Assembly (NCBI RefSeq): GCF_024585165.1 | Contig: NZ_CP029008.1 | Location: 744,001-808,000, forward strand | DNA from: Bradyrhizobium sp. WBOS07 | GTDB lineage: Bacteria > Pseudomonadota > Alphaproteobacteria > Rhizobiales > Xanthobacteraceae | Length of the DNA stretch: 64,000 nucleotides | Direction: 5' to 3' | Part shown: piece by piece, positions 2,255-43,340 of the stretch | How the letters are laid out: the number at the start of each line of letters is the position of its first letter | Position numbering within the stretch: position 1 is the first letter of the stretch | Translations under genes and position numbers: made by a program | Notes under the pieces: generated by a model | The model's input: only the letters and a program-made list of their open reading frames with translations | Databases searched by the model: none | What the model was told of the DNA's origin: nothing

Positions 2255-3055
2255 TCAGATTGTCGGGCTAACCAGGAACTTGAAGCCGTATTTTTCCAGG
2301 ATGGACTTGGCCACCGAGGAGCGCAGGAAGGCGAGATAGTCGCCGGTCCCGGCCTTCGCGATCGTGGTCGCGGCGACCGGATAGATGATCGCGGGATGCG
2401 AGTCCGCCGGGAAAGTGCCGACGATCTTGACGCCGGGCTCGACCTTGGCGTCGGTGGCATAGACGATGCCGAGATTGGCCTCGCCGCGCGCCACCAGCGT
2501 CAGCGCGGCGCGCACGCTCTCGGCCATCGCGAATTTCGCTTCGGCTGCCTGCCAGGCGCCGAGCTTCTCGAGCGCCGCCTTGGCATATTTGCCTGCGGGC
2601 ACCGACTTGACGTCGCCGGTCGCGACCCGGCCGTCGCCGGCGAGCTTGGCGAGGTCGAAGCCCCCGGCAATCGCGACGTTGTCGATCCTGGAATCCTTCG
2701 GCGCGATCAGCACGAGGCTGTTGCCGAGCAGATTGACTCTGGAAGGCTCGTTGATGGTCTTCCTGGCGATCGCGTAATCCATCCAGTCGGTGTCGGCGGA
2801 GACGAACACGTCCGCCGGCGCGCCCTGCTCGATCTGGCGGGCGAGCACCGAGCTCGCGGCATAGCTGACCGAGAACTTGACGCCGGTCCTTGCGGTGTAG
2901 GCGGCATCGACCTCGTCGAGCGCGTTCTTCATCGACGCGGCGGCGAACACGGTGATGGTCTTGTCCTCGGCTGCGGCCGGCGAGAGGGGGGCGGCGGCAA
3001 GGATCACGAAGGCGGGGATCACGAAGGCGGTGAGAAGTCCGGACTGGCGAAACAT
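2255..3055 (-). CDS. modA: Molybdate ABC transporter periplasmic binding protein ModA
   Basis: This 266-aa secreted solute-binding protein delivers molybdate (or tungstate) to ModBC. A signal peptide occupies about residues 1-29 (hydrophobic core, then LSPAAAED). The mature protein opens with ITVFAAASMKNALDE, the ModA signature that contributes oxyanion-binding serines. ASSVLARQIEQGAPADVFVSAD, GNSLVLIAPK and GEANLGIVYATDA follow, all typical of the family. It is the first gene of modABC. I see no obvious ModE box or molybdenum-cofactor riboswitch in the upstream 340 bp, most of which is a palindromic repeat. Confidence 0.93.
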   Translation of the reverse strand: MFRQSGLLTAFVIPAFVILAAAPLSPAAAEDKTITVFAAASMKNALDEVDAAYTARTGVKFSVSYAASSVLARQIEQGAPADVFVSADTDWMDYAIARKTINEPSRVNLLGNSLVLIAPKDSRIDNVAIAGGFDLAKLAGDGRVATGDVKSVPAGKYAKAALEKLGAWQAAEAKFAMAESVRAALTLVARGEANLGIVYATDAKVEPGVKIVGTFPADSHPAIIYPVAATTIAKAGTGDYLAFLRSSVAKSILEKYGFKFLVSPTI

Positions 3056-3395
3056 GGATGCGCTCCGTGCGAGCTCGCGCGCGCAGGCGGCGCACGCAAA
3101 TCTGGCGTTGATTGGGTCAGATGCGACGGGCGGACGCGCCGTTCCACGGCTCCACTTTGGCTTACGGCCAGCGTGGGATATCGCAGCAGCGAAGATAGCA
3201 GGCCAGGTCGGAAGGTCAAACCGGGCGCGTCATCCCGGGGCGCGCGTAGCGCGAGCCCGGGATTCATAGCCACAGGATTGTGTTTGGCGAAGACTCGGAG
3301 TGGCCGCCTCGCGTCATGACCACTTCTTGGGGGTATGGATCCCGGGCTCGCTTCGCGCCCCGGGATGACAGCGGTGGGCGAGGGGACAGCGTATC
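3056..3395. other. 340-bp gap between modA and mepA
   Basis: This gap lies between two minus-strand genes. The part next to modA (3056-3228) must hold the modA promoter, but no clear -35/-10 pair stands out. The remainder is the palindromic repeat at 3229-3371. No coding sequence is supported here. Confidence 0.6.
3229..3371. repeat. Palindromic repeat, GTCATCCCGGGGCGCG family, copy 1
   Basis: The left arm GTCATCCCGGGGCGCG...GCGAGCCCGGGAT is answered by the right arm ATCCCGGGCTCGC...GCCCCGGGATGAC. The centre contains CATAGCCACAG and the GGTATGGATCC motif. Copies with the same layout occur at 43191-43340, 46125-46270 and 49263-49380. Confidence 0.85.
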
Positions 3396-4340
3396 CTACG
3401 GCTTCGCATCGCCCGCGTGCAGCACCGCCCTGCAGGCCGCCGGCATCTGCGCCAGCGTCATCGGCGGCTTCGGTTTTGGCGGCTCCGGCGGCGGCTTGGG
3501 GTGCAGCACCGCGTCGGAGAACCAATAGGCGAGATCGGCGGGCTTGCAGCCTTCGTCCTCGGCCTGCGAGGGCTGGCCTTCGCATTCGCCGGCGCCGGCC
3601 GGGCAGCGCATGCGGATGTGGAAATGGTAGTCGTGGCCCCACCAGGGGCGGATCTTCGACAGCCATGCGCGGTCGCCCTTGGCCTCGCGGCACAGCGCCT
3701 TCTTGATCGCGGCGTTGACGAAGATGCGCTGCACCGCCGGCTCCCGCGCCGCATCGCGCAGCACCAGCACATGGCCCGGCGTGAACACTTTCGGATCGAT
3801 GTCGAGCCGGTCCTGGCGCACCATCATCACCGCCGACATGTCTTCGCGCTCCTCGCGCGAGAGGCGGCGGTCCGGCATCGGCGTCAGCCAGATGTCGGCG
3901 TCGAGACCGATCTGGTGGCTGGCATGGCCCGACAGCGCCGGGCCGCCGCGCGGCTGCGCGATGTCGCCGACCAGGATGCCCGGCCATCGCGCGTCCTTGT
4001 GCGCCTTGGCCGCGAGCCGCTTGATCAGCGCGATCATCTCGGGGTGGCCATAGCTGCGGTTGCGTGACAGCCGCATCACCTGCCAGTGATCGCCGTTGAG
4101 CGGCATCTGCTCCGCGCCGCCGATGCAGCCCTTGGTGTAGGAGCCGATGACATGGGCCGGTCCCTTGGACGGCAGCAGCTTGCGCGCGAACAGCTCCTTG
4201 GCGGCCAGATCCGGGTCGTTCGGATTGGCGAGCGGCGGCAGCGGCTTCGGATTCACGCTGCCCTTGTCCTGGGCCAGCGCGGTGCCGGCGGCCAGGGGGA
4301 CGAACCAGAGCAGGAGGAGGATGATGCCGCGGCGACTCAT
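3396..4340 (-). CDS. mepA: Penicillin-insensitive murein endopeptidase MepA
   Basis: This periplasmic LAS-type metallopeptidase cleaves the D-Ala-meso-DAP cross-bridges of peptidoglycan. The ATG at 4340 gives 314 aa with a signal peptide ending near residue 23 (GTALAQ/D). The zinc-site motifs are visible: GHASHQIGLDADIWL (first His and Asp) and DYHFHIRMRCP (HxH). Four or more cysteines (KGCIGG, MRCPAGAGECEG, EGCKPADL) fit the disulphide-bonded MepA fold. The C-terminus has a proline/lysine-rich linker (PKPPPEPPKPKPP) before a last short segment. The frame is open another 86 codons upstream, but that part lacks a signal peptide and was rejected. Confidence 0.9.
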   Translation of the reverse strand: MSRRGIILLLLWFVPLAAGTALAQDKGSVNPKPLPPLANPNDPDLAAKELFARKLLPSKGPAHVIGSYTKGCIGGAEQMPLNGDHWQVMRLSRNRSYGHPEMIALIKRLAAKAHKDARWPGILVGDIAQPRGGPALSGHASHQIGLDADIWLTPMPDRRLSREEREDMSAVMMVRQDRLDIDPKVFTPGHVLVLRDAAREPAVQRIFVNAAIKKALCREAKGDRAWLSKIRPWWGHDYHFHIRMRCPAGAGECEGQPSQAEDEGCKPADLAYWFSDAVLHPKPPPEPPKPKPPMTLAQMPAACRAVLHAGDAKP

Positions 4341-4753
4341 GCAGATGTCCTTATAGCCCAATGCTGCATCAGGGGTAAGAATGAGGCTGGAGCCGGCCGC
4401 CGGCTCGGCGCTGCTCGTTAAATCGCGTCTCGGGCCGGGTTTCTTAAGGCGGCAATAACCGTATCCTGCATTGACCAAAATTCGTGCGCAGCGCGAGGAA
4501 AATCCGCGGCTCGCATGCAATCGCGCCTGATTTCGGAACTGATACAAGCGCGCGCGCAATTTTGCATCAGGCCGACCAACGATTGCGGCTCCAGACACAA
4601 TGTGACCGCGCCTGCCGCCATAGCCACGCCGCGCAAACAGGCAGCAAGGTCCGCATCGCGCGGACCGCGGCCGGGCGAGATTACTTTTTTTTCAGACACT
4701 TGCCCCAAGACTTTTTCATTCAGGACTTGCGCGGGCGGGCGCGACGGGAACGA
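4341..4753. other. 413-bp divergent gap upstream of mepA and the EAL gene
   Basis: This gap separates two divergently transcribed genes, so it should carry both promoters. Open frames extend through it, but their translations are rich in Arg/His/Ala and match no domain. I see no strong promoter consensus, hairpin or repeat. A T-rich run lies near 4685-4695. Confidence 0.5.
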
Positions 4754-6964
4754 GTGAAGTTGGGTTTGAAGTCTCGAAAAGCAAAAAAGCGAAGGCAAGG
4801 CTTGCCTGCCCGGGCCGGCCGCTCGCCGCGCAAGCCGCGCTTCGCATGCGCACCGCGACCCCTGTCCGAACGCGACGAGGTCTTGCGCAGTCGCGCCGAG
4901 GCGGAGGCCGCGATCGCGGACGCGCGCAAATCGCATGAGCGGCTGCGCCAGGCCATCGACATCCTGCCGCAGGGCATCGTGTTCCTCGATGCCGAGGGCC
5001 GCTACGTCCTCTGGAACAAGAAATACGCGGAGATCTACAGCAAGACCGCCGATCTGTTCGAAGAGGGCGCACGTCTCGAAGACACGCTGCGCATCGGCGT
5101 TGCCCGCGGCGATTACCCGGAGGCTGTGGGCCAGGAGGACGCGTGGATCGCCGAGCGGCTGCAAAAACTCTATCAGCCCGGCGCGCGGCACGAGCAGATG
5201 TTGTCGGACGGCCGCGTCATTCTGATCGACGAGCGCTTGACCGATGACGGCGGCGTGGTCGGCCTGCGCGTCGACATCACCGAGCTGAAGCAGCGCGAAG
5301 CCTCGTTCCGCCTGCTGTTCGACGGCAATCCCGTCCCGATGATCGTCTGCGCGCTGGACGACGAGCGCATCCTCGGCGTCAACGATGCCGCGGTCGCGCA
5401 TTACGGTTACAGCCGCGCCGAGTTCGAGCGGCTGAAGATCCGCTCCTTGCAGGCCTTCGACAGCGAGCCGCCCTGGACCGCCGATCGTTCCAGCGAGGAG
5501 CAGGCCGGCCGCACCTGGAAGCACGTCAAGGCCGACGGCGCGCTGATCGACCTTGCGATCTATTTCCGCGAATTGACCTATGCCGACCGGCCCGCGGTGC
5601 TGCTGGCGCTGATGGACATCACCGAACGCAAGCGCGCCGAGGCGCGGCTCGCCTTCATGGCCCAGCATGACTCCCTGACCGGCCTGCCCAACCGCGCCTT
5701 GCTGCGCCAGCAGACCGACGAGATGCTGCTGCACACGCGGCGCAGCCCCGAGAAGGTCGCGCTGCTGATGCTGGGACTCGACAATTTCAAGGCGGTCAAC
5801 GACACGCTCGGACACGCGGTCGGCGACAAGCTGCTGCGCGGCGTCGCCAAGCGGCTGCGCTCGACCTTGCGCGAGGAAGACGCGCTGGCGCGGCTCAACT
5901 CGGACGAGTTCGCGATCGTGCAGAGCGGCTTGATGCGGCCCGAGGACGCGGTCGGGCTGGCAAAGCGCCTGCTCGAGGCCATCGCCGATCCCTATCTGCT
6001 CGACGGTCATTCCGTGGTGATCGGCGCCTCGATCGGCATCGCGATGGCGCCGGGCGATGGCGACGATTCCGAGAAGTTGCTCAAGAGCGCCGACATGGCG
6101 CTGTCACGCGCCAAGCAGGACGCGCGCGGCAGCTTCGCCTTCTTCGAGGCCGCTTTGGATGCGAAAGCGCAGAGCCGCCGCAAGATCGAGGTCGAGCTGC
6201 GCGACGCGATCCAGAACGACGTGCTGCGTCCGTATTATCAGCCGCTGATCGACCTCCAGAGCGGCCGCATCACCGGCTTCGAAGCGCTGGTGCGCTGGCC
6301 GCACGCCGAGCGCGGCATGGTCTCGCCCGCCGAGTTCATTCCGGTCGCCGAGGACACCGGCCTGATCAATCCGCTCGGCGGGCTGATGCTGCGCCGGGCC
6401 TGCCTCGATGCCGCGGCCTGGCCGGACGACGTCCGCGTCGCCGTCAATCTGTCGCCACTCCAGTTCCGCAGCGGCAATCTGCTCTCGATGGTCACGGAGG
6501 CGCTCAAGGGGGCCGGCCTGACGCCGCGCCGGCTCGAGCTCGAGATCACCGAGACGCTGCTCCTGGAAAAGAGCGCGCAGGTGCTGGCGACGCTGCATGC
6601 CTTGCGCGCGCTGGGGGTGCGCATCTCGATGGACGATTTCGGCACCGGCTATTCCAGCCTCAGCTATCTGCGCAGCTTCCCCTTCGACAAGATCAAGATC
6701 GATCAGTCCTTCGTTCGCGATCTCGGCGCCAATCGCGAGGCGCAGGCCATCATCCGCTCCATCGTCAGCCTCGGCAAAGGCCTGGGCGTCACCATCACCG
6801 CCGAAGGCGTCGAGACCGAAGCCGAGCTGAGCTGCCTGCGCGCGGAAGGCTGCCACGAAGGCCAGGGCTTTCTGTTCAGCAAGGCCCGGCCCAATGTCGA
6901 GATCGTCAGCCTGCTCGCCGCACAGCGCGGCATCGACGGCGATGACGCCGCGCTGGTGGCGTGA
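4754..6964 (+). CDS. PAS-PAS-GGDEF(degenerate)-EAL cyclic-di-GMP signalling protein
   Basis: This predicted soluble signalling protein most likely hydrolyses cyclic-di-GMP. The order is a basic N-terminus, a short coiled coil (about 45-65), a PAS-7-type domain (DILPQGIVFLDAEGRYVLWNKKYAEIY), a second PAS (LLFDGNPVPMIVCALDD, ending ALMDITERKRAEARL), GGDEF (about 305-465) and EAL (about 485-730). The GGDEF signature reads N382-S-D-E-F, so the two glycines of the cyclase site are lost and diguanylate synthesis is unlikely. The EAL domain keeps E510-A-L, NLSPLQF, ELEITE, MDDFGTGYSSL, KIKIDQSF, TAEGVET and EGQGF, so phosphodiesterase activity is expected. The GTG at 4754 is preferred because upstream codons look non-coding; the start is uncertain. 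Confidence 0.85.
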   Translation: MKLGLKSRKAKKRRQGLPARAGRSPRKPRFACAPRPLSERDEVLRSRAEAEAAIADARKSHERLRQAIDILPQGIVFLDAEGRYVLWNKKYAEIYSKTADLFEEGARLEDTLRIGVARGDYPEAVGQEDAWIAERLQKLYQPGARHEQMLSDGRVILIDERLTDDGGVVGLRVDITELKQREASFRLLFDGNPVPMIVCALDDERILGVNDAAVAHYGYSRAEFERLKIRSLQAFDSEPPWTADRSSEEQAGRTWKHVKADGALIDLAIYFRELTYADRPAVLLALMDITERKRAEARLAFMAQHDSLTGLPNRALLRQQTDEMLLHTRRSPEKVALLMLGLDNFKAVNDTLGHAVGDKLLRGVAKRLRSTLREEDALARLNSDEFAIVQSGLMRPEDAVGLAKRLLEAIADPYLLDGHSVVIGASIGIAMAPGDGDDSEKLLKSADMALSRAKQDARGSFAFFEAALDAKAQSRRKIEVELRDAIQNDVLRPYYQPLIDLQSGRITGFEALVRWPHAERGMVSPAEFIPVAEDTGLINPLGGLMLRRACLDAAAWPDDVRVAVNLSPLQFRSGNLLSMVTEALKGAGLTPRRLELEITETLLLEKSAQVLATLHALRALGVRISMDDFGTGYSSLSYLRSFPFDKIKIDQSFVRDLGANREAQAIIRSIVSLGKGLGVTITAEGVETEAELSCLRAEGCHEGQGFLFSKARPNVEIVSLLAAQRGIDGDDAALVA

Positions 6965-12462: not shown

Positions 12463-13893
12463 TCACCCTCTCCGAAAGGGAGGCTCCCGATGGTAGTAGT
12501 TCCAGAATGTTTCGCGAAGGAGAGAGTTGTTTGACTGTACCCTCACCGTCGACCCAGTGAGTTTTTCTTGCAATAGGAAATATCCATCCTTCTTCTTAGT
12601 CAGTTGGAACTCCATATCGTTATAGAAGATGCGTCGAACCATCTCTGCGACCTCGCGTCGGTCGTCCATCACAATCGAACCAACGGCGACGCCGTTGTGG
12701 AAGTTGATCAGGCGAGCGAGCGGATGAATGTCTTTGAACAATTTCTGCTTAGTCTCCGTATCGCAGAAGAAAATTACGGGCTTGCCCAAGCTCAGGGCCA
12801 TCGCGGCCTCAGCATCCTTTCCGTAACTGTCAGATTTCCCGGCGTTGTAGATCAACATTTTCGAGCATTTGACCATCAAACATTCGATTAGCCCCTTGTC
12901 TTCGTGGTTGTCAGCTGCGCTCATCGTCGGATCGAAATATCTCAATCTCAAAGCGCTGATCTTGGGGTCGCCAAATACATCTTCGCAGAATTCTGCCATG
13001 GTGCGGAAATCATCCCGATTGCGCATGCTAGTAGCAACATACACGTCTAGGTCAGAGATCATCGAAAGATAGAGGCTTGTATTCTTCAACGCATTTTCCC
13101 GAGCTCGTTCGAACTTGGCAACAAGCGGCCCAATAGTTTTCTCAAGATCGGCCGCGCTTGAAACTTCTTTGTCTATCGCTTCGTCAAGCGAGAACGAAAG
13201 CTGATATTCATCGTATTTGTCTTCTTGTGACCGACTGTCCGAGATTAGATTCTTTACCGTGAGTCGTTTCTGTCCTGCTTCAGAGAGTTGTTCGTAGCGT
13301 CGCTGTATGTATTCGAGAAGCGAGGGCATAGACCGGTCCGCCGGCGCGTATGTCTTGCAAGCGACCTCAGCGATCAAATATCGCTCGTCTTTCGCGATGT
13401 GATTTAAAGGCAGATAGTCGCTGCGGCTCGTGAGATCGTTGGTGTCGTGAATCCTGGCGCGGAAAAAGTCTTCTAACTGCGCCTTCGAAAGGCCTCGGAG
13501 GCTTCGGTAACACTCGCGGATATTGCCGAAATAGAGTAGTCCATCGGTGTAGAGGCGGTGCAATCCCCATTTCAGGTGGGATAGGTTGATGATTGCACTA
13601 GCCTCTAAGAACTTCTCGTCGAACTCAGGCAGCTTCTTTGGGTCGTACCAATAGGCTCCAACAGGGTGCGGATTGGACAGAAAGTAAAAGTTGAAAAAGC
13701 CGTAGGACATGCCGGCTTCGTGCGAGAGAATTAGGAGCTGGTTGAGGATTTCGAAAGGGATGTTCCGCACCTCGCAATTGCAGAGATGGTTCGCAACGAC
13801 GTCGGGCATCGTTTCCGAGAACCAGGCTTCGATGCCGCCGCCGTTGCCGCTGAAGAGCTCAAACTCCTTTAGTAGGCCAGCTTTGTCCAACAT
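12463..13893 (-). CDS. Uncharacterised protein with C-terminal deoxyribosyltransferase/SLOG-like domain (possible defence effector)
   Basis: I do not recognise the full 476-aa protein. Residues 1-265 look mostly helical and match nothing I know. From about residue 281 the pattern is Rossmann-like: DLDVYVATSMRNRDDF (strand plus basic loop), LRYFDPTMSAADNHEDKGL, then SKMLIYNAGKSDSYG and GKDAEAAMALSLGKPVIFF. The last element resembles the Glu-bearing helix followed by A-x-GKPV of nucleoside 2-deoxyribosyltransferases and SLOG/TIR-like nucleotide-processing domains. A C-terminal tail follows. It has a strong ribosome-binding site (GGGAGG) before the ATG at 13893. The base composition is clearly poorer in GC than flanking genes. 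It is divergent from the Panacea pair. A nucleotide- or NAD-processing immune effector is inference only. Confidence 0.55.
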   Translation of the reverse strand: MLDKAGLLKEFELFSGNGGGIEAWFSETMPDVVANHLCNCEVRNIPFEILNQLLILSHEAGMSYGFFNFYFLSNPHPVGAYWYDPKKLPEFDEKFLEASAIINLSHLKWGLHRLYTDGLLYFGNIRECYRSLRGLSKAQLEDFFRARIHDTNDLTSRSDYLPLNHIAKDERYLIAEVACKTYAPADRSMPSLLEYIQRRYEQLSEAGQKRLTVKNLISDSRSQEDKYDEYQLSFSLDEAIDKEVSSAADLEKTIGPLVAKFERARENALKNTSLYLSMISDLDVYVATSMRNRDDFRTMAEFCEDVFGDPKISALRLRYFDPTMSAADNHEDKGLIECLMVKCSKMLIYNAGKSDSYGKDAEAAMALSLGKPVIFFCDTETKQKLFKDIHPLARLINFHNGVAVGSIVMDDRREVAEMVRRIFYNDMEFQLTKKKDGYFLLQEKLTGSTVRVQSNNSLLRETFWNYYHREPPFRRG

Positions 13894-14122
13894 TGACGGT
13901 CTCCCTCCCTGTCATGCCCACAATAAAGCAGACCTTTAGATGTAACTCCAAGTTGTTTTGGCGAAGTTGGACGATCGCATCGTTTAACGGACGTCTGGTG
14001 GGGGGCGGCCCCAGTATTGGGCTAAAGAGCGGGGCGGAGCGGGTACGTTTGTCGGTAGGACTCGATGCTCCGAATCAGTGGAAAATAGCGTTTGGCTTAT
14101 TGCGAACAAAACGTGAATATTC

Positions 14123-14128
14123 TATTCT
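14123..14128 (+). promoter_or_regulatory. Candidate -10 box for the Panacea operon
   Basis: TATTCT at 14123-14128 lies 17 bases after TTGCGA at 14100-14105. Transcription would begin at or next to the ATG at 14134, giving a leaderless mRNA. This would explain why no ribosome-binding site is visible there. It is supported only by consensus matching. Confidence 0.35.
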
Positions 14129-14133
14129 GCGCT

Positions 14134-14622
14134 ATGTCTAATGATGTCCGTGCTATCGCAAATTTGGTTTTAGATCTTGCTGATCAGCGCGGTCGGCAGG
14201 TCTCGAACTTAAGCATCAATAAGATCGTTTTCTTTCTGCATGCTTTCTTTCTTGCTCGATTTGGAAAGCCATTGGTTTCAGCGAAGATTGAAGCATGGGA
14301 ATATGGCCCAGTATTTCGAGAGCTGTATCGCGAGTTTAAGTCGTGTGGTGATAAGCCGATCAACGCGCGGGCTCACCGAATCAATCCGCGTACGGGTGAA
14401 CGGGAGCTTTGTGAGGCGCTCTTGCCCGAACAGGAGCGCCTATTCGTAGAGGAAGTAGGCCAGAAGTTTGTTGCGTTTTCGGCTAGTTCTCTCGTGTCAA
14501 TGTCGCATGAAGCTGGCGGGCCTTGGGATCAGGTTTGGAATCATAGCTCCAAGGCGAACCCTTCTATGCAAATATCAGACGATCTGATCGTGAGTTGGTA
14601 CGCTAAAGCTGCGAGGCACTGA
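14134..14622 (+). CDS. Panacea (SocA/DUF4065) domain antitoxin
   Basis: This 162-aa protein has the Panacea/SocA layout: a start like DVRAIANLVLDLADQRG, then LSINKIVFFLHAFFLARFGKPLV, then the hallmark AKIEAWEYGPVFRELYREFK and a C-terminal LVSMSHEAGGPWDQVW. Panacea proteins act as antitoxins to many unrelated toxins, and SocA is a ClpXP adaptor-antitoxin in Caulobacter. The stop overlaps the next gene's ATG by one base, so the two are translationally coupled, as expected for a toxin-antitoxin pair. I prefer the ATG at 14134; a TTG at 14092 is possible. Low GC relative to the chromosome suggests recent acquisition. Confidence 0.8.
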   Translation: MSNDVRAIANLVLDLADQRGRQVSNLSINKIVFFLHAFFLARFGKPLVSAKIEAWEYGPVFRELYREFKSCGDKPINARAHRINPRTGERELCEALLPEQERLFVEEVGQKFVAFSASSLVSMSHEAGGPWDQVWNHSSKANPSMQISDDLIVSWYAKAARH

Positions 14623-15431
14623 TGATCGAATACAGCGCTGAAATCGTGAAGCGTCTCAAAATTCTTCGGAAATTGGATTTTCCACCTGCTGGGCCAAACT
14701 GGGTTCGGTTTATTTTTGATGATGTGCGACCGACCGCAAAAGCAATTCTTAGCTTTGCGAAAGGTCAACCGGCTTTCGGCTATCAACCAGGTTACCGTGC
14801 GATAAAGGACAGGCTAGAACTTGGTATTGGGCTCGACGCTGCTATCAAGGTGGCCGCTAGCAAGGGGGCGCCGGCTGGCAGGGTCCAGAATAAGCAATTG
14901 GTCGAGGCGTTTTTCGACTACGATGAGACGCGTAGGTATTCGTCGTCAAACCCGATTGAATTCGAGAAGGAATTCTTTCGCGTTTCGAGGGATGTGCTTG
15001 TGCCGGTAGCGCCGCTTTCAATCATTCGCGAGAAGGGTAAGTTCGTTCCTCTGTTCGTCTGCGGATGGGCGAATAATCCACTGCGGTTGCTCCAGCGACG
15101 TCTCCTTATGACAGTTTATGAGGATGCTTTCTTCTCCTTGACGGACTATCAAGCGTCACCTGGCGAAGTGCTGTTTTTTCCGCAGAGCGAAGCTAGAAAG
15201 CAAGAGGAAGCAAACGAAAATTGTCGCGAGATAGAGTTGTGGCGCCGCGGTGATTACGACTTGCTGTCAAAAGCGGAGCTCAGCGATTGCGTGGAGATAT
15301 TTGCATTGGCCCGGGAACAAGCGCGATCGATTCTCCAAAGCGAGATTGATGAGCTTAGGAACAGGATGAAAGCCGAAAATGCGGTCGATGAAGTAGGCCC
15401 TTCTTTGGAAGATCTCTTCCATAAGAAATAG
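14622..15431 (+). CDS. Putative toxin partner of the Panacea antitoxin
   Basis: This 269-aa protein of unknown family follows the Panacea gene with a one-base TGA/ATG overlap. It contains no signal peptide or clear membrane helix. Visible features are an N-terminal helix-rich part (EIVKRLKILRKLDFPPAGPNWVRF), a central stretch with RNLEF-like aromatic and acidic residues (VEAFFDYDETRRY), FVPLFVCGWANNPLRLLQRRL, and a charged C-terminal helix likely to form a coiled coil (ALAREQARSILQSEIDELRNRM). The toxin role rests on position and coupling alone. No nuclease or ADP-ribosyltransferase motif is obvious. Confidence 0.55.
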   Translation: MIEYSAEIVKRLKILRKLDFPPAGPNWVRFIFDDVRPTAKAILSFAKGQPAFGYQPGYRAIKDRLELGIGLDAAIKVAASKGAPAGRVQNKQLVEAFFDYDETRRYSSSNPIEFEKEFFRVSRDVLVPVAPLSIIREKGKFVPLFVCGWANNPLRLLQRRLLMTVYEDAFFSLTDYQASPGEVLFFPQSEARKQEEANENCREIELWRRGDYDLLSKAELSDCVEIFALAREQARSILQSEIDELRNRMKAENAVDEVGPSLEDLFHKK

Positions 15432-36981: not shown

Positions 36982-37155
36982 CGAAGGGCCACGCTCCGGC
37001 GAGACGGACGATTGCGCAAATGCCCGCCGGACGGTCGGAACGATTGCCGCGTCCCTCAATAGCGGAATTCGGCGCGGGGAGGGACCCCAGAATTCCGGCG
37101 TGGTGAATGGAGGCGTGAGTGGTGATATCGCGATCGTCACCACAACGAAATCTGC

Positions 37156-37248
37156 GCTCCCTCCCCCGCGTGCGGGGGAGGGTTGGGGAGAGGGTATCTC
37201 CGCAGTGGGACTCCCCAAGAGGAGAGAGCCCCCACCCCTGCCCGGGGC
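37156..37248. repeat. Palindromic repeat, GCTCCCTCCCCCGC family
   Basis: GCTCCCTCCCCCGCGTGCGGGGGAGGG forms a strong hairpin and is followed by TTGGGGAGAGGGTATCTCC, with a degenerate right arm. Elements with the same plan occur at 62044-62152 and within 44565-44858. Confidence 0.65.
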
Positions 37249-37271
37249 GGCCCAAAAGACCGCCCAAAACC

Positions 37272-37300
37272 TTGACTGCCCGCCCCTTCCCCCCTATACG
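37272..37300 (+). promoter_or_regulatory. Sigma-70-type promoter for rpmB
   Basis: TTGACT at 37272-37277 and TATACG at 37295-37300 are separated by 17 bases. The -35 hexamer matches consensus at five of six positions. It lies about 95 bp upstream of the rpmB ATG, leaving a leader of roughly 90 nt. Confidence 0.6.
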
Positions 37301-37396
37301 TCCGCCCGCTCCCTGCAAGGACAAAAGAATTTGCCCCCGTGGCGCCCAAAATGGCGGCCGCACCCGTTGGGGGTTCGAAGCATAAGGATTTCTACC

Positions 37397-37708
37397 ATGT
37401 CTCGCCGCTGCGAACTGACGGCCAAGGGCCCCCTCGTCGGCCACAAGGTCAGCCACTCCAACATCAAGACCAAGCGCCGCTTCCTGCCGAACCTCGTCAA
37501 CGTGACGTTCATCTCGGAAGCCCTGGAGCGCAACGTGCGCCTGCGTGTCTCCACCAACGCGGTGAAGAGCGTCGACCACAATGGCGGCCTCGATGCCTAC
37601 CTGCTCAAGGCCAACGCCGACGCGCTCTCCCCGCGCGCCCTCGAGCTGAAGCGCGCCATCCAGAAGAAGGTCGGCCCGTCGACCGCGCCGGCGAAGAAGG
37701 CGAGCTGA
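37397..37708 (+). CDS. rpmB: 50S ribosomal protein L28
   Basis: The 103-aa protein begins [33 protein letters not shown], the classic L28 N-terminus, and ends in a Lys/Ala-rich tail. It is a structural component of the large subunit. A promoter and terminator flank it, so it is monocistronic. It marks the left boundary of the second low-GC islet. Confidence 0.97.
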
Positions 37709-37778
37709 GTTTTACGGAATTGGGCGGGGGCTAGGTTGCGTCGCGTGGCGTAGGCTTAGCCGAGTAAGAGTTTGCGTT

Positions 37779-37812
37779 GCGGCCGGATCGGAAGATCCGG
37801 CCGCTTTTGTTT
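37779..37812 (+). terminator. Rho-independent terminator of rpmB
   Basis: A perfect eleven-base stem (GCGGCCGGATC, loop GGAA, GATCCGGCCGC) is followed by TTTTGTTTTT. It begins about 70 bp after the rpmB stop and is where the GC-rich chromosome gives way to the islet. Confidence 0.92.
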
Positions 37813-37897
37813 TTGGGGAGCGACAACCTAAGGTATCGATCGTTGCCCGCGAATCGCGCAAAAATCCCAAGATTGCTCGCGGTCGAAAGGACGTCAG

Positions 37898-39277
37898 ATG
37901 GTGGCGCTCCGTGACTCTGTATTTATTAGTCACGCTACTCCTGAAGATAACGCTTTCACTCTTTGGCTCGGAGGGCGCCTAACCGCTTTGGGCTATCACG
38001 TATTCGCCGACATACTTCGCCTCAAAGGCGGAGACGATTGGGAACGCATTCTCGAGGACGCTATCCGACAACGCGCCAAGCGCTTTCTACTCGTTGCGAC
38101 GCCAGGCGGCATTCAAAAGCAAGGAGTTCGGAACGAGATTAATCTGGCGGTCGAAACCGCTAAAAAGATTGGGGATGGCGGCTTCATTGTACCGCTCCGG
38201 CTCGCTGCTTATCCACCACCGCTACAGATTGCGCAGACTCAGTACATAAACTTCGAAAAGGGTTGGGCTCAGGGTCTCGCTGAACTGTTGCCGCTGCTCG
38301 AAGAAGCAAACGTTCCTAAGCACACCGCTCCAGAGGAGACAAAGGCTTGGCAAAGCCTTCAGCTCAAAGATGCAAGATCCATAACTAACGGCCCTGAGCA
38401 ACTCGTCTCCAATTGGTTAAAAGTAACATCTTTGCCGACGTCAATTGCATTCTTCGATTTCAAAAGCGGCATCGCTCTAGGATCAGCACAAAAGGCGCGA
38501 GCAGATTGTCCGCTTCCCATCGCGCTTCACAACCGTGGCTTTCTCAGCTTTGCACCGCTGCACCAGTTGCAAGAGTACTTTGGCCCTAACCTTCCCATCG
38601 AAGTGATCGATACTTGCGACATAGACACGTTTCTCTCCAAAGGATGGCACTCGCAACATCTCGCGCCGAAAGATTGCCGTCCCAAATTTACCGACATAGT
38701 TCGCCGAGCGCTCGACGCTCACTTCAGTTCTAAGGGATTAAGGTCATTTGAGTACGCCAGCGGTCGACTTGCGTGGTGGGCAACCGCACGTCACGCTACG
38801 CTAGATCAACACACTTTCGCGTGGGACTCGCTTAGGGGAAGGCGACAGCTTGTTGGCCGATCCGAGAAGCGAGGCTTTTACTGGCACTATGCCGTCAATT
38901 GCATAGCGCGAACCAATCCGTTGCGTCACGTCCGCGTTACCGGGCGAGTAGTATTTACCTCAAATGGCTCTGACCTCATTGGAGATACCCGTCGCCTACA
39001 CCGGATGCGGCGCACATTCTGCAAGGGATGGAGAAATGACAAGTGGCGAGATCTACTTCTCGCGTTCTGGTATTGGATGAGCGATGGAGCAGAATTCCTA
39101 GACATTGCACTTGGCGAAGGAAACGCCATGCGTCTAAGTCTTCCTCCTCACCTTTTCACAGCGCCATTTGGGATAAGCTCTCCGTCCGACGCACTTCAAG
39201 ACGATCAGGACGATGATCTGCTAACTGACTATGACGACGATACAGACGATAGCGAAGAAGGGGATGGGGTTGACTAA
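37898..39277 (+). CDS. TIR-APAZ subunit of a SPARTA short-Argonaute immune system
   Basis: The 459-aa protein has an N-terminal TIR domain (about 5-140) and a C-terminal APAZ-type domain (about 160-430). The TIR strand FISHATPED (9-17), the WE motif at W48-E49 of GGDDWERILEDAI (E49 aligns with the catalytic Glu of NAD-hydrolysing TIRs), the KRFLLVATPGG strand and RNEINLAVE helix are present. APAZ resembles the N-L1-L2 part of long Argonautes and holds the guide-target duplex with the partner. On activation by target nucleic acid, TIR depletes NAD(P)+ and kills the infected cell. The C-terminus is a highly acidic tail. AAAGGA precedes the ATG. Its TAA overlaps the Argonaute ATG by one base. 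Low GC content contrasts with both flanks. Confidence 0.88.
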   Translation: MVALRDSVFISHATPEDNAFTLWLGGRLTALGYHVFADILRLKGGDDWERILEDAIRQRAKRFLLVATPGGIQKQGVRNEINLAVETAKKIGDGGFIVPLRLAAYPPPLQIAQTQYINFEKGWAQGLAELLPLLEEANVPKHTAPEETKAWQSLQLKDARSITNGPEQLVSNWLKVTSLPTSIAFFDFKSGIALGSAQKARADCPLPIALHNRGFLSFAPLHQLQEYFGPNLPIEVIDTCDIDTFLSKGWHSQHLAPKDCRPKFTDIVRRALDAHFSSKGLRSFEYASGRLAWWATARHATLDQHTFAWDSLRGRRQLVGRSEKRGFYWHYAVNCIARTNPLRHVRVTGRVVFTSNGSDLIGDTRRLHRMRRTFCKGWRNDKWRDLLLAFWYWMSDGAEFLDIALGEGNAMRLSLPPHLFTAPFGISSPSDALQDDQDDDLLTDYDDDTDDSEEGDGVD

Positions 39278-40818
39278 TGAAAACCTTGAACCTCATCAGA
39301 CTTGCGGAACCTCAATTAGAATTCAAATACGGACAGACCTTAGTCTACCCTAGGGACGGACTTTACCTCTACGGCCCCGTGGATGGTGGACGGCCCAGTA
39401 TTCATTATGGCGCGATAGGAACGAAGAGTGGGGTTGAGCGGCTCGGGCGCTGGGCTAAAGCTGTGGCCGGGTTTGTCGATATTCCACCACCCCGCAAGGG
39501 CGCTAAAGCGATCGAGCCTCAACATATTCCGTTTCCCGGATTCTCAGCGGCATTCAACTCGAACTGGCCTGTTTACCCGAAGACAGTAATCGACACTATC
39601 GACTCTGCAGCGCTTTCTAAAGCGCTCAGAATTTCGAATCGAAACGAAGCAATCAAAGCTGCAGTGGATCTGTATGTGAACGCCTTAGTGGCCCGATGCG
39701 ACCGAATTGAAGATGCGCCGAGCTTTTGGTTCGTAGTTATTCCCGAAGAAGTTTACGACCTTGGCCGCCCACTTTCTCGCATCCCAACAAAGGAGAAGAT
39801 TCCAGGCAAAACCCGCATCTCAAGGGCGGAGGCATTAAAGCTTGACAATCAGCCGACTTTATTTGGGTTGGAAGAGGCCGAAGCCGATGTTTACAAGTAC
39901 GCAACTCACTTTAGGAGACAACTGAAAGCTCGACTCTTGTCTCCCAAGATAGTGACCCAAATTGTTCGAGAGACAACTCTTACACCCGACGATTTCCTAA
40001 GGAGCGATGGTCAACGAAAGAGACGCATTGAGGACAACGCGACCGTTGCATGGAAACTGACGACGGGATCCTATTACAAGGCCGGAGGCAGACCTTGGCA
40101 ATTAGCCGGCGTTCGAGAGGGCGTATGCTACGTAGGCTTGGCGTACAAGAGGCGAGAAGCGACAGCAGATGACGGCTTCGCCTGCTGCGCAGCTCAGATG
40201 TTCCTCTCAAGCGGCGAGGGCATCGTCTTCAGAGGCGCATTGGGTCCTTGGTACAACTCGGACACAAAACAATTCCACATTGACGAGCCAGCAGCGAAGC
40301 GCTTGATCGAAATGGTGGTTCAGGAATATCGCGATCAGCACAACAATCAACCGCCAAAAGAATCATTCCTGCACGCTAAATCTCACTTCTCCGACGAAGA
40401 ATGGAGCGGCTTCGCTAGTGGCGCGCCTCCCGAAACCAATGTCGTCGGCGTACAAATCTCAGACGCGCAAGACGCGCTTAAGCTATTTAGGCCCGGTAAG
40501 TATCCAGTCCTGCGGGGAACGGCGCTACTCCTTTCTGAAAGCGAGGCCTATGTCTGGACATCTGGATACGCCCCCCGGCTCGATACTTATCTGGGCCCCG
40601 AAACACCTAATCCCTTGTTGGTAAGACGACAGCGAGGAAATTGCGAACTAGAAACGATCCTTGAGGACGTGATGAGCCTTACAAAGATCAACTTCAATTC
40701 GTGCCTGCACAATGATCGTCTGCCTGTAACCATAAGGTTCGCCGATGCCGTGGGTGAAGTGATCCTTGCGGCGCCCCAGACAAGTGAGCCCAAGCTAGCG
40801 TTCAAATATTACATCTAG
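39277..40818 (+). CDS. Short prokaryotic Argonaute (MID-PIWI), SPARTA type
   Basis: The 513-aa protein matches short pAgo in length and layout: a MID domain (about 60-260) and a C-terminal PIWI (about 270-513). Expected slicer residues are not intact: VCYVGLAYKRRE occupies the position of the first catalytic Asp in active PIWI domains (where IGIDxSR is usual), and LHAKSHFSDEEW is the short-pAgo version of the third motif. The end LAFKYYI fits the buried C-terminus typical of PIWI domains. It would bind a guide and use the target to trigger the TIR partner without cutting. The ATG shares its A with the upstream TAA, so synthesis is coupled. Confidence 0.9.
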   Translation: MKTLNLIRLAEPQLEFKYGQTLVYPRDGLYLYGPVDGGRPSIHYGAIGTKSGVERLGRWAKAVAGFVDIPPPRKGAKAIEPQHIPFPGFSAAFNSNWPVYPKTVIDTIDSAALSKALRISNRNEAIKAAVDLYVNALVARCDRIEDAPSFWFVVIPEEVYDLGRPLSRIPTKEKIPGKTRISRAEALKLDNQPTLFGLEEAEADVYKYATHFRRQLKARLLSPKIVTQIVRETTLTPDDFLRSDGQRKRRIEDNATVAWKLTTGSYYKAGGRPWQLAGVREGVCYVGLAYKRREATADDGFACCAAQMFLSSGEGIVFRGALGPWYNSDTKQFHIDEPAAKRLIEMVVQEYRDQHNNQPPKESFLHAKSHFSDEEWSGFASGAPPETNVVGVQISDAQDALKLFRPGKYPVLRGTALLLSESEAYVWTSGYAPRLDTYLGPETPNPLLVRRQRGNCELETILEDVMSLTKINFNSCLHNDRLPVTIRFADAVGEVILAAPQTSEPKLAFKYYI

Positions 40819-40921
40819 CGGCAGGGGCTGATCTAAGTCGACCTTGGCAGCAAATTCCGTTGGATCGACTCTACGCTCAGAATTTTAGCTACTTGGGCGA
40901 CACGTAAAAATGGGAGTTCAT

Positions 40922-41605
40922 ATGCCGAGCCGCGCCGAGGTAATTCGCGTTCTCTTGCATCTCCTCAACGAAACAGCACATGGCGAGATCGACGAGATCA
41001 CCAGCCAAATACTTGAAGGCGCCCGTCATATTTCGGCACAACGGCTCTCTGAGATAGATCAGAAGCTCGACAGTATAATTCGTAGACTTGATCGGCCATT
41101 TTGCCAGCTTGCCGAAACCGAGGACAACGCACACGCAAAGTTGATTGTGGGGCTGGGCTCTGGCGCGAGACAGCAGGCCTTAGCCCACTTGAACGACAGC
41201 TTGGGCGGAGCTCGACATTTGACGATATGTGATCCCTATCTTCTAAGTTCGCCAGGACGCATATCATCCGAAGAGTATGTGAATGGAATCGAGAGCGCTC
41301 TACCGCAGACGCTGAGAGCCGTTGAGATTTTCTCGAAACGGGGCGTACGAAACAAGGATATTGCGGATCGACTAAACCAAATGTTTCGTCGCAGAGATAT
41401 TAGAGTGAGGATCTACAAAACGGAAGACATCCATGATCGCGTTTGGATCAAGGACTCTCTTGAAGCGTATTCGATCGGAACGTCTTTCAACGGCCTTGGA
41501 AACAAATTCACCTTTATTCTTCCCTTACCATCAAGCGACGTCAGGCCCTTCTTATCAGAAATACAAATTCTTAGATCGGAACTGTCATTTTCGAAATCGG
41601 TGTAA
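40922..41605 (+). CDS. PLD-like (HxR/GTSxN) protein downstream of SPARTA; possible accessory
   Basis: This 227-aa protein has an N-terminal helical region (about 1-65) and a single phospholipase D-like half-domain. The C-terminal motif reads H171-D-R173-(x4)-D178 followed by IGTSFN, which is HxK(x4)D(x)nGSxN with Lys replaced by Arg. Earlier elements LTICDPYLL and DIRVRIYKTEDIHDR fit the same fold. One such half-domain usually dimerises to make an active site, as in Nuc-like endonucleases, or is used in abortive-type proteins. It begins 103 bp after the Argonaute stop, in the same direction. GGGAG supports ATG 40922; ATG 40910 is an alternative. Its low GC matches the SPARTA genes. A functional link to them is inferred. 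Confidence 0.7.
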   Translation: MPSRAEVIRVLLHLLNETAHGEIDEITSQILEGARHISAQRLSEIDQKLDSIIRRLDRPFCQLAETEDNAHAKLIVGLGSGARQQALAHLNDSLGGARHLTICDPYLLSSPGRISSEEYVNGIESALPQTLRAVEIFSKRGVRNKDIADRLNQMFRRRDIRVRIYKTEDIHDRVWIKDSLEAYSIGTSFNGLGNKFTFILPLPSSDVRPFLSEIQILRSELSFSKSV

Positions 41606-41718
41606 GTTGTCAGCGAGGAAAGCTATACGACCTCGAAGCATCCAATCCAGCATAGCGTTATCCTAAGCCCGATTTTCCGCTATACTCGCCCCGGTAGCAT
41701 CCCCCCGAGGCGCATCCG

Positions 41719-43047
41719 ATGGACACCGCGCACACCCCCGACCCCCACCCCTCCCCCAAGAACCTCGTCATCTGCTGTGATGGCACTGGCAACGAGATCT
41801 CGGAGAACATCTCCAACGTCCTGAAGCTGTATCGCTGCCTGCGCAAGACCGACAGGACGCAGCCGCGGCAGATGGTGTTTTACGATCCCGGGGTAGGCAC
41901 GGTGACGGAGCCGACGACGTGGCACCGCCTCAAGGCCAACGTCAACCTGGTGCTGGGGCTCGCCACCGGCTACGGGCTCGATGACAACGTGCTCTCGGCC
42001 TATTGCTTCCTGGTCGAGCATTACGCGCCGGGCGACAAGATCTATCTGTTCGGTTTTTCGCGCGGCGCCTACACCGTGCGCGTGCTGGCGGGGCTGATCC
42101 ACAAGATCGGCCTGATCAGGCCGGAGCAGGCGAACCTCGCTGGGAGCGGCCTCGTCGCCTACAAGCAATATTCCGGCACCGGGCGCGGCAACGACGTCGA
42201 GGATCTCAGCGACGTCGCGTTCGACGAGAGCGGGCCGCTGCCGAAGGACGCGTTCGATCTCGCCGCGCAGTTCGCGCGCATCACCTCGACGCGCTGGCCG
42301 ACCATCCACTTCATCGGCGTGTGGGACACGGTCGCGAGCGTGATCGTGCCGCGCGCCGACCGGCTGTTCTGGCCGAGCCTGGAGGAGCTCGCCTTCACGC
42401 TGCGCAACCCGAGCGTCAGGATTTTCCGGCAGGCAATCGCGATCGACGAGCGGCGCTGCATGTTCCGCCTCAAGAAGTACTGGGAGCCGCAGGAGTTCTG
42501 GAGCAACCGCTACGTGCCTGATGAGAAGAAGGTGCCGCAGGACATCCTGCAGGTGTGGTTCGCCGGCGTGCACAGCGACGTCGGCGGCGGCTATGCCGAG
42601 GCCGAGAGCGGCGAGTCCAAATATCCGCTGCTGTGGATGCTGGATGAGGCGGAGAAGGCGGGGCTGAACTTCAACCCCGCGACCATCAAGCAGCTGGCCT
42701 GGGGCATCCCGCGCAAGAACTCGCCGTTTCACTATGTCGCGCCGGCCTATGCCGGCAAGACCGGCGAGCTGCACAATTCGATGACGGCCGCCTGGCGGCT
42801 GCTGGAGTACATTCCGAAGAGCGCGAAGTACCGGGAGTGGCCGGAGCGGAAGGTGGTGCTCGGCTTCTACATCCCCGATTGCGAGCCGCGCCTCATTCCC
42901 GACGGCGCGCATGTGCACGAGAGCGTGCTGAAGCGGATGGCGGTGGAGCCGGAGTATCGGCCGGTGAACATGCCGAAGGACTACGTGACGGTGCCGATGC
43001 CGGTGCCGCCGCGGGTGGAGCCGGCGGGGGAGAGCGTGACGGGGTGA
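41719..43047 (+). CDS. DUF2235 (T6SS Tle1-like phospholipase/hydrolase) protein
   Basis: The 442-aa protein has the DUF2235 alpha/beta-hydrolase fold. The N-terminal VICCDGTGNEI is the family opening. S114 in YLFGFSRGAYTVRV is the nucleophile elbow; D and H follow in IGVWDTV and FAGVHSDVGGGY. Tle1 effectors share this fold, but there are no T6SS genes nearby and no toxin-immunity partner, so a cytoplasmic housekeeping hydrolase is equally likely. GC-rich codons mark it as chromosomal flank, not islet. Confidence 0.85.
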   Translation: MDTAHTPDPHPSPKNLVICCDGTGNEISENISNVLKLYRCLRKTDRTQPRQMVFYDPGVGTVTEPTTWHRLKANVNLVLGLATGYGLDDNVLSAYCFLVEHYAPGDKIYLFGFSRGAYTVRVLAGLIHKIGLIRPEQANLAGSGLVAYKQYSGTGRGNDVEDLSDVAFDESGPLPKDAFDLAAQFARITSTRWPTIHFIGVWDTVASVIVPRADRLFWPSLEELAFTLRNPSVRIFRQAIAIDERRCMFRLKKYWEPQEFWSNRYVPDEKKVPQDILQVWFAGVHSDVGGGYAEAESGESKYPLLWMLDEAEKAGLNFNPATIKQLAWGIPRKNSPFHYVAPAYAGKTGELHNSMTAAWRLLEYIPKSAKYREWPERKVVLGFYIPDCEPRLIPDGAHVHESVLKRMAVEPEYRPVNMPKDYVTVPMPVPPRVEPAGESVTG

Positions 43048-43071
43048 TGGGAGCGCACTGCTCTCACCCGC

Positions 43072-43155
43072 GTCATTGCGAGGAGCCCTTGCGACGAAGC
43101 AATCCAGACTAACGCCGCGGATACAGTTCTGGATTGCTTCGCTGCGCTCGCAAAG
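43072..43155. repeat. Palindromic repeat, GTCATTGCGAG family, copy 2 (diverged)
   Basis: The right arm CTGGATTGCTTCGCTGCGCTCGCAA matches the copy at 30066; the left arm reads GTCATTGCGAGGAGCCCTTGCGACGAAGCAATCCAG and is only partly complementary. Confidence 0.8.
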
Positions 43156-43190
43156 GGCGGGTTGAGGCAGGCTCGTGCCACACCCTCAGC

Positions 43191-43340
43191 TGTCGTCCCT
43201 GCCTAGTGCGCAATTGCGCACGGGCGCAGGGACCCATAACCACAGGGAGTGGTTTGGCGAAGATTCGACGTTCGGTACTCCAACCACGGATAACCGAGAG
43301 ATCACGCGGTATGGGTCCCTGCGTTCGCCGGGACGACAGC
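43191..43340. repeat. Palindromic repeat, TGTCGTCCC...GGGACGACA family
   Basis: TGTCGTCCCTGCCTAGTGCG begins the left arm and ACGACA ends the right. It contains a perfect GTGCGCAATTGCGCAC palindrome, CCATAACCACAG and ACGCGGTATGGGTCCC, shared with 49263-49380 and related in layout to 3229-3371. Confidence 0.8.

Follow-up and report, generated by a model that had tools for sequence, protein, structure and literature searches.

A predicted SPARTA operon in a variable low-GC slot downstream of rpmB in Bradyrhizobium sp. WBOS07

Results

Gene content and boundaries of the islet

The window analyzed in this study is a 64,000-nucleotide stretch of Bradyrhizobium sp. WBOS07 (assembly GCF_024585165.1, contig NZ_CP029008.1, positions 744,001 to 808,000, forward strand); coordinates below are counted from its first base. 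It harbors a gene pair that is predicted to be an intact operon of SPARTA, a two-gene system of a TIR-APAZ protein and a short prokaryotic Argonaute (pAgo). SPARTA is widespread and, as the first-pass annotation of this DNA had stated, already known; the present copy is a new member. The TIR-APAZ gene (37898-39277, + strand) encodes 459 amino acids (aa) and the short pAgo gene (39277-40818, + strand) encodes 513 aa. The coordinates first proposed for the pair were confirmed; both frames are open and overlap by one base in TAATG at 39275-39279.

The operon lies in an islet of three co-directional genes, the third of which (40922-41605, + strand, 227 aa) encodes a protein with a phospholipase D (PLD) fold. 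Its start was set at 40922 because GGGAG is located just upstream; 40910 is also possible. The GC content of the islet is 0.49-0.55, compared with 0.62-0.72 on either side, and the drop begins past the intrinsic terminator of rpmB (37779-37804, + strand), which consists of an 11-pair stem plus TTTTGTTTTT; in near relatives, cargo starts right after this T-run. rpmB itself (ribosomal protein L28; 37397-37708, + strand) is the left anchor, and its 103-aa product is matched in 254 of the 265 genomes of the genus. The right cargo edge is a promoter-like stretch (TTTTCCGCTATACTCGCCCCGGTAGCATC; 41672-41718, + strand). Its core recurs in 40 loci of the nearest set of 54 defined below (some others are cut before it). 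The stretch precedes a hydrolase gene (41719-43047, + strand) that we take to belong to the DUF2235 family and that serves as the right anchor in near relatives; a search of 31 genomes found homologues in 19, every one a member of the same genus. From the GC profile and the flank comparison, the low-GC cassette spans approximately 37815-41672. The islet had been placed directly after the rpmB terminator, which holds for its start; its extent had to be revised, as it runs beyond 40818 to about 41672 and includes the third gene. No att-like direct repeats were found at the islet ends, and no Rfam RNA elements were found in 37000-43200 at E ≤ 0.1.

Identity of the two SPARTA subunits

The TIR domain of the first protein covers residues 8-131 (Pfam TIR_2, E = 1.5e-20), and the whole protein matched the PADLOC model Aga_TIR-PNTD1-PNTD2 (E = 3.5e-150). 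Residues 3-456 aligned with the solved chains 8j8h_B (E = 8.5e-54) and 8ifk_A (E = 1.4e-53), and residues 160-430 (approximately) corresponded to the APAZ part of solved SPARTA proteins, so that the TIR plus APAZ-like composition first assigned to this gene was borne out. The TIR domain matched SPARTA TIRs strongly and the NADase TIRs SARM1 and AbTir weakly (E = 0.05-0.12).

The second protein consists of MID and PIWI domains only, is close in size to 507-aa SPARTA pAgos, and aligned over residues 5-513 with PDB 8qlo_B (E = 3.6e-117) and 8ifk_B (E = 3.4e-114). Its class was assigned from profile matches only (PADLOC pAgo_I, E = 4e-194), and no Pfam or NCBIfam model scored above its cut-off. 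We take PDB entries 8ifk, 8j8h, 8fex, and 8qlo to be MapSPARTA and CrtSPARTA structures. The near end-to-end matches to solved subunits support the original SPARTA assignment.

Catalytic, guide-pocket, and interface residues

Residues were mapped by hand on HMMER alignments, using the numbering given in PMC11156904 and PMC10474274, and conservation was counted over the query plus 120 homologues (the best 120 of 731 and of 2973 matches, which are close clade members). E77A is described as the catalytic mutant of the MapSPARTA TIR (PMC10474274). MapSPARTA Glu77 aligned with Glu80, conserved in 119 of 121 sequences with two gaps. The first-pass annotation had named Glu49 as the NADase position. 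Glu49, conserved in 117 of 121, aligned without gaps to MapSPARTA Trp46, and it was ruled out as the catalytic residue; Glu80 is the predicted one, and Trp48 is the tryptophan nearby. An E49 substitution, which had been suggested as the control, would therefore alter the wrong position, and the identification of Glu80 averts this mutant. MapSPARTA Y105 corresponds to Y105, a position occupied by Phe in 81 and Tyr in 38 of the aligned sequences.

According to PMC11156904, MapSPARTA V284, Y328, R362, and N484 occupy the positions of the CbAgo catalytic tetrad. Their counterparts are A289, F333, K368, and D490, three of which are non-acidic; D490 occupies the fourth position, which is variable. 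As originally noticed, the first slicer Asp has been lost (A289), and the second and third are missing too (F333 and K368). The PIWI domain is predicted to be inactive, without the DEDX slicer tetrad. The guide contacts Y148, K211, R225, T228, R243, N466, N468, and I507 of MapSPARTA correspond to Y160, K217, R231, T234, R249, N472, N474, and the C-terminal I513. K217, R231, T234, R249, and N472 are conserved in 121 of 121 sequences, N474 in 120, Y160 in 117, and the C-terminal Ile in 116. The MID pocket for the guide 5'-phosphate is predicted to retain most of its residues.

Distribution of SPARTA relatives

pAgo homologues (E ≤ 1e-3) were found in 34 of the 296 genomes of the family and in 68 of the 265 of the same genus, counts that take in every short pAgo type as well as fragments; the genome of WBOS07 itself, a single 6.73-Mb contig, has one match. 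Thirty family loci (L001-L030) were inspected with 1.5-kb flanks. At all 13 loci where the pAgo match was full-length and at least about 41% identical, a TIR-APAZ homologue was present, and the other 17 had none at E ≤ 1e-4; one of these 17 (L022) holds a 150-residue pAgo fragment of 45% identity. Among the matches listed, the closest named copy is that of Bradyrhizobium sp. DASA03068 (pAgo 93% and TIR-APAZ 92% identity), in keeping with a Bradyrhizobium source of the DNA. Weaker relatives reside on plasmids of rhizobial and other hosts (14 records, 11 from Rhizobium), of which 12 are predicted to be conjugative and nine align with both genes. No tblastn match to the pAgo was obtained in phage records.

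The PLD-fold gene

The third protein has the PLD fold with the motif HxR(x)4D(x)7GTSFN in place of the canonical HxK(x)4D(x)6GSxN, and H171 and R173 are invariant across 23 aligned sequences. Its gene is rare, occurring in four of 265 same-genus genomes (WBOS07 included, one match weak) and in one of 296 family genomes (WBOS07). In genome G313, a relative of 51% identity likewise occupies the slot, about 5.7 kb past rpmB; it lies next to a helicase/methyltransferase-like module, and no SPARTA was present in the stretch fetched. The PLD-fold gene is probably an independent passenger of the islet, given its occurrence, apart from SPARTA, in the slot of this other genome of the genus. SPARTA was absent from the flanks, up to 8 kb long, of all 10 genome-contig loci with a PLD relative (four of them shortened by contig ends). 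As no linkage appeared in these 10 loci or in the 296 family and 265 same-genus genomes, a conserved third SPARTA component was rejected.

A scan of viral contigs gave no confirmed relative of the PLD gene, and a literature search for the PLD-like family by name returned nothing useful. In locus L039 (8925-11692), a PLD-gene relative lies near genes resembling, by eye, an OLD-type ATPase and a UvrD-like helicase, and in L040 (5772-6869) near a gene resembling, by eye, an AAA ATPase. These neighbors suggest that the PLD-like family may travel with other defense genes.

Occupancy of the slot after rpmB

rpmB was located in 18 same-genus relatives. The first 13 loci fetched (L120-L132) have a DUF2235 homologue or fragment near rpmB; genome G417 is split over contigs, and G469, also split, was excluded from the count. 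The next 40 genomes in the order of the rpmB match list were added, giving 54 nearest loci including the window. A more distant set of 20 (L198-L217) comprised four relatives omitted earlier and 16 hand-chosen from lower listed matches. Loci were anchored on the terminator hairpin pattern. Of the 54 nearest loci, 51 show it, and the DNA beyond the T-run is unrelated; the anchors of the other three (L130, L131, and L143) were placed by hand. The pattern fits two of the 20 distant loci, and the rest were anchored 90 bases past rpmB.

Cargo was scored as low-GC when the first 1.5 kb past the terminator had a GC content below 0.57. By this measure, 50 of the 54 nearest loci (all but L129, L131, L152, and L159) carry low-GC cargo, versus six of 260 control tiles drawn from 20 stretches of 20 kb in ten of the genomes. 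Low-GC cargo occurs in eight of the 20 distant loci, or 58 of 74 overall, and three distant loci (L201, L208, and L210) have low-GC open reading frames (ORFs) further in. In 49 of the nearest loci, the window among them, rpmB is followed by a DUF2235 match that exceeds 110 codons (58-93% identity); three have only a remnant and two have none, some matches being cut by the end of the stretch. Among the 20 distant loci, the fetched stretch contains DUF2235 in five. The idea of a genus-wide hotspot was scaled back on these distant counts.

Low-GC DNA lies directly before the first match in 31 of the 52 loci with a DUF2235 match, namely 12 with an intact gene (the window included) and all 19 with a remnant; in the other 21, a GC-rich stretch intervenes. 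The 19 short 5' fragments, found among the 53 near relatives (for example L121, L123, L127, L128, L162, and L163), mostly have a fuller copy downstream. Since every remnant abuts low-GC cargo, the pattern suggests that the cargo end carries, or has recombined with, the 5' end of DUF2235. We would guess that the arrangement of remnant plus fuller copy is a trace of flank recombination. The FtsZ-like gene that precedes DUF2235 in L128 is not present in the window.

No SPARTA genes were found in the 53 other near loci. A divergent pair (TIR-APAZ 31% and pAgo 46% identity) is located after rpmB in distant locus L203 (genome G331), starting about 2.3 kb past rpmB, and apparently represents a second, independent arrival in the slot. 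It occupies oriented positions 2693-5601 and is preceded by a 531-aa ORF.

Defense content of the cargo

The 138 low-GC cargo proteins, the window included, cluster into 95 families, 68 of them singletons. For a PADLOC scan at E ≤ 1e-10, 56 cargo proteins were chosen by hand, in most cases as the longest low-GC ORF or ORFs of a locus; they come from 37 of the 53 near relatives and from none of the 20 distant loci. Mostly single proteins were scored per locus, and completeness of the systems is not claimed. Matches were obtained for 38 of the 56 proteins versus none of 10 control ORFs (for alternate control stretches, the longest ORF at the midpoint). At least one match occurred in 32 of the 37 loci, the exceptions being L120, L143, L158, L165, and L177, with one protein scanned in each.

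The systems represented vary widely. They comprise Gabija in L132 (GajA 2.4e-227, GajB 1.3e-126), L138, and L162 (GajA alone scanned in L162); Zorya in L144 (ZorA2 5.8e-134, ZorB2 8.4e-82); Hachiman in L171 (HamA 1.6e-205); Lamassu-like systems in L161 (LmuB 2.7e-226), L164, L154, and L122; DSR1 in L126 (1e-99); a retron-type reverse transcriptase with DUF3800 in L123 (3.1e-217); the DRT reverse transcriptase RT_UG20 in L175 (2.2e-218); IetS in L150 (1.6e-265); SIR2 proteins in L127 and L155; and restriction-modification type matches in L128, L139, and L149. An Rfam DUF3800-VII RNA lies at L123:5609-5728, beside the DUF3800 gene that accompanies the retron-type reverse transcriptase. Genes at L120:3429-4697 (423 aa; cut-off 1e-3), L143:6205-7905 (567 aa; 1e-10), and L177:4791-8807 (1339 aa; 1e-10) had no PADLOC match and are candidates for undescribed defense genes.

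A Pfam scan of 20 cargo proteins found no recombinase domain. In L135, a stretch just past the terminator that resembled the 5' end of a group II intron was not called by Rfam at the gathering threshold and is not claimed.

A second low-GC patch

A second patch of low GC content (about 0.50) occupies 12463-15431 of the window, beside a gene that we take to be lepA. It contains a 476-aa ORF on the - strand, followed by a 176-aa ORF overlapping a 269-aa ORF. The 176-aa product presumably resembles SocA/Panacea antitoxins, and the latter two ORFs are possibly a toxin-antitoxin pair.

Discussion

In the nearest genomes, the interval downstream of rpmB has conserved flanks, varied defense cargo, and majority occupancy, and in this sense it is a core defense hotspot; its DUF2235 flank applies to the nearer genomes only. 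Our searches of the open-licence PMC literature found no report of the rpmB-DUF2235 interval as a defense site. The horizontal acquisition proposed in the first-pass annotation is further supported by the finding that relatives carry other low-GC cargo at this site. It is very probable that the SPARTA system arrived as a foreign cassette in this defense hotspot, bounded by the DUF2235 gene in the nearer part of the genus, and that it acts by the mechanism of its homologues. What was read directly here is the gene content, the residues, the layout of the operon, and its position in the hotspot; guide and target type, oligomerization, NADase activity, and abortive outcome are taken from homology. 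By this analogy, the TIR-APAZ/short pAgo heterodimer would load a 5'-phosphorylated guide RNA, and pairing of the guide with single-stranded invader DNA would assemble a tetramer of heterodimers. The TIR domains would then stack and hydrolyze NAD(P)+ through Glu80, and the loss of NAD(P)+ would stop or kill the infected cell.

Several observations weigh against this interpretation. A search of the islet's + strand for sigma-70-like promoters gave none. Trp48 adjoins, instead of occupying, the position aligned with MapSPARTA Trp46. The MapSPARTA interface residues R114/N116 of the TIR and Q35/Y37 of the pAgo correspond to Q113/Q115 and G37/P40 and are not conserved, and the 5'-phosphate ligand H207 is replaced by Arg213 in all 121 aligned sequences. 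Of the 20 distant loci, 12 fall outside the low-GC criterion used above and 15 lack DUF2235 in the stretch fetched.

The changed interface residues could indicate a decayed or regulatory relic, SPARTA-shaped and unable to assemble or hydrolyze NAD+. We consider this very unlikely, given that the frames are intact, the overlap is retained, and the catalytic and pocket residues are conserved. The same interface positions are also not kept in most of the 120 aligned relatives; being common to many clade members, these changes suggest clade-specific contacts rather than decay. An equally slight probability is given to a three-gene system in which SPARTA would use the PLD-like protein as an additional effector or an accessory, as in the haloarchaeal long-A pAgo system APAP. 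The PLD gene is on the same strand about 100 bp downstream of the pAgo gene in the same islet, no + strand terminator was found between them, and proteins of this fold are described as partners of other pAgos (PMC11442185). Against such a system stand the G313 relative in the same slot, the lack of SPARTA at all 10 contig loci, and the rarity of the PLD gene (4 same-genus and 1 family genome) relative to pAgo homologues (68 and 34).

The slot might be merely a tolerant intergenic site that takes any foreign DNA without enrichment for defense: 18 of the 56 cargo proteins had no PADLOC match at 1e-10, generic helicases and methyltransferases are among the PADLOC models, the cargo was hand-picked, and the distant loci are patchy. 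The control was also small (10 ORFs from random stretches) and silent on the content of other low-GC islets. This explanation is improbable, although less so than the previous two, in view of the 38 of 56 versus 0 of 10 matches and of the GajA, GajB, ZorA, ZorB, HamA, Dsr1, retron, and DRT matches at 8e-82 to 7e-285.

Beyond the foreign SPARTA cassette, a broader proposal is evenly poised between right and wrong. The rpmB slot would be a defense-cassette exchange site of the genus, nearly always occupied in the closest genomes, where each cassette is joined to the rpmB terminator on one side and to the DUF2235 5' end on the other and is exchanged by flank recombination, leaving DUF2235 5' remnants, without an integrase of its own. 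SPARTA would have arrived at least twice (the window and G331), the PLD-like gene would travel alone (the window and G313), and the unclassified cassettes (the PLD-like gene and the L120, L143, and L177 genes) would be undescribed defense systems. The useful part is the address and not SPARTA itself. If the slots of near relatives almost always hold one foreign, mostly defense-like cassette, they would form a ready catalogue of immune systems, a place to seek new ones, and a clean setting for studying the transfer of defense genes from chromosome to chromosome where no integrase is apparent.

Comparison with known systems

The core defense hotspots cDHS1 and cDHS2 are known in Pseudomonas aeruginosa (PMC10250203). 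As that source describes them, they share with the rpmB slot conserved flanking genes, majority occupancy, and many different defense systems; they differ in that the present site belongs to another genus, has other flanks (rpmB and DUF2235), is seen across species of the genus, and carries low-GC cargo stretches of about 1-7 kb. APAP likewise places a pAgo gene near a PLD-fold gene, but, as outlined in PMC11442185, its pAgo is long-A and active and its PLD protein has HxK, whereas the pAgo here is short and predicted to be inactive, the PLD motif is HxR, and no recurrent pAgo-PLD linkage was observed. SPARSA (SIR2-APAZ/pAgo) and SPARDA (nuclease-APAZ/pAgo), as described, also pair a short pAgo with an APAZ partner; their effector is SIR2 or a nuclease, whereas it is TIR here. 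Closest are MapSPARTA and CrtSPARTA, which differ from the present system in H207 (Arg here), in the TIR and pAgo interface residues, and in the Trp, off by one in the ungapped alignment. They share with it the two-gene organization of TIR-APAZ and short MID-PIWI pAgo, similarity over nearly the full length, the catalytic Glu, the inactive PIWI, and the C-terminal Ile.

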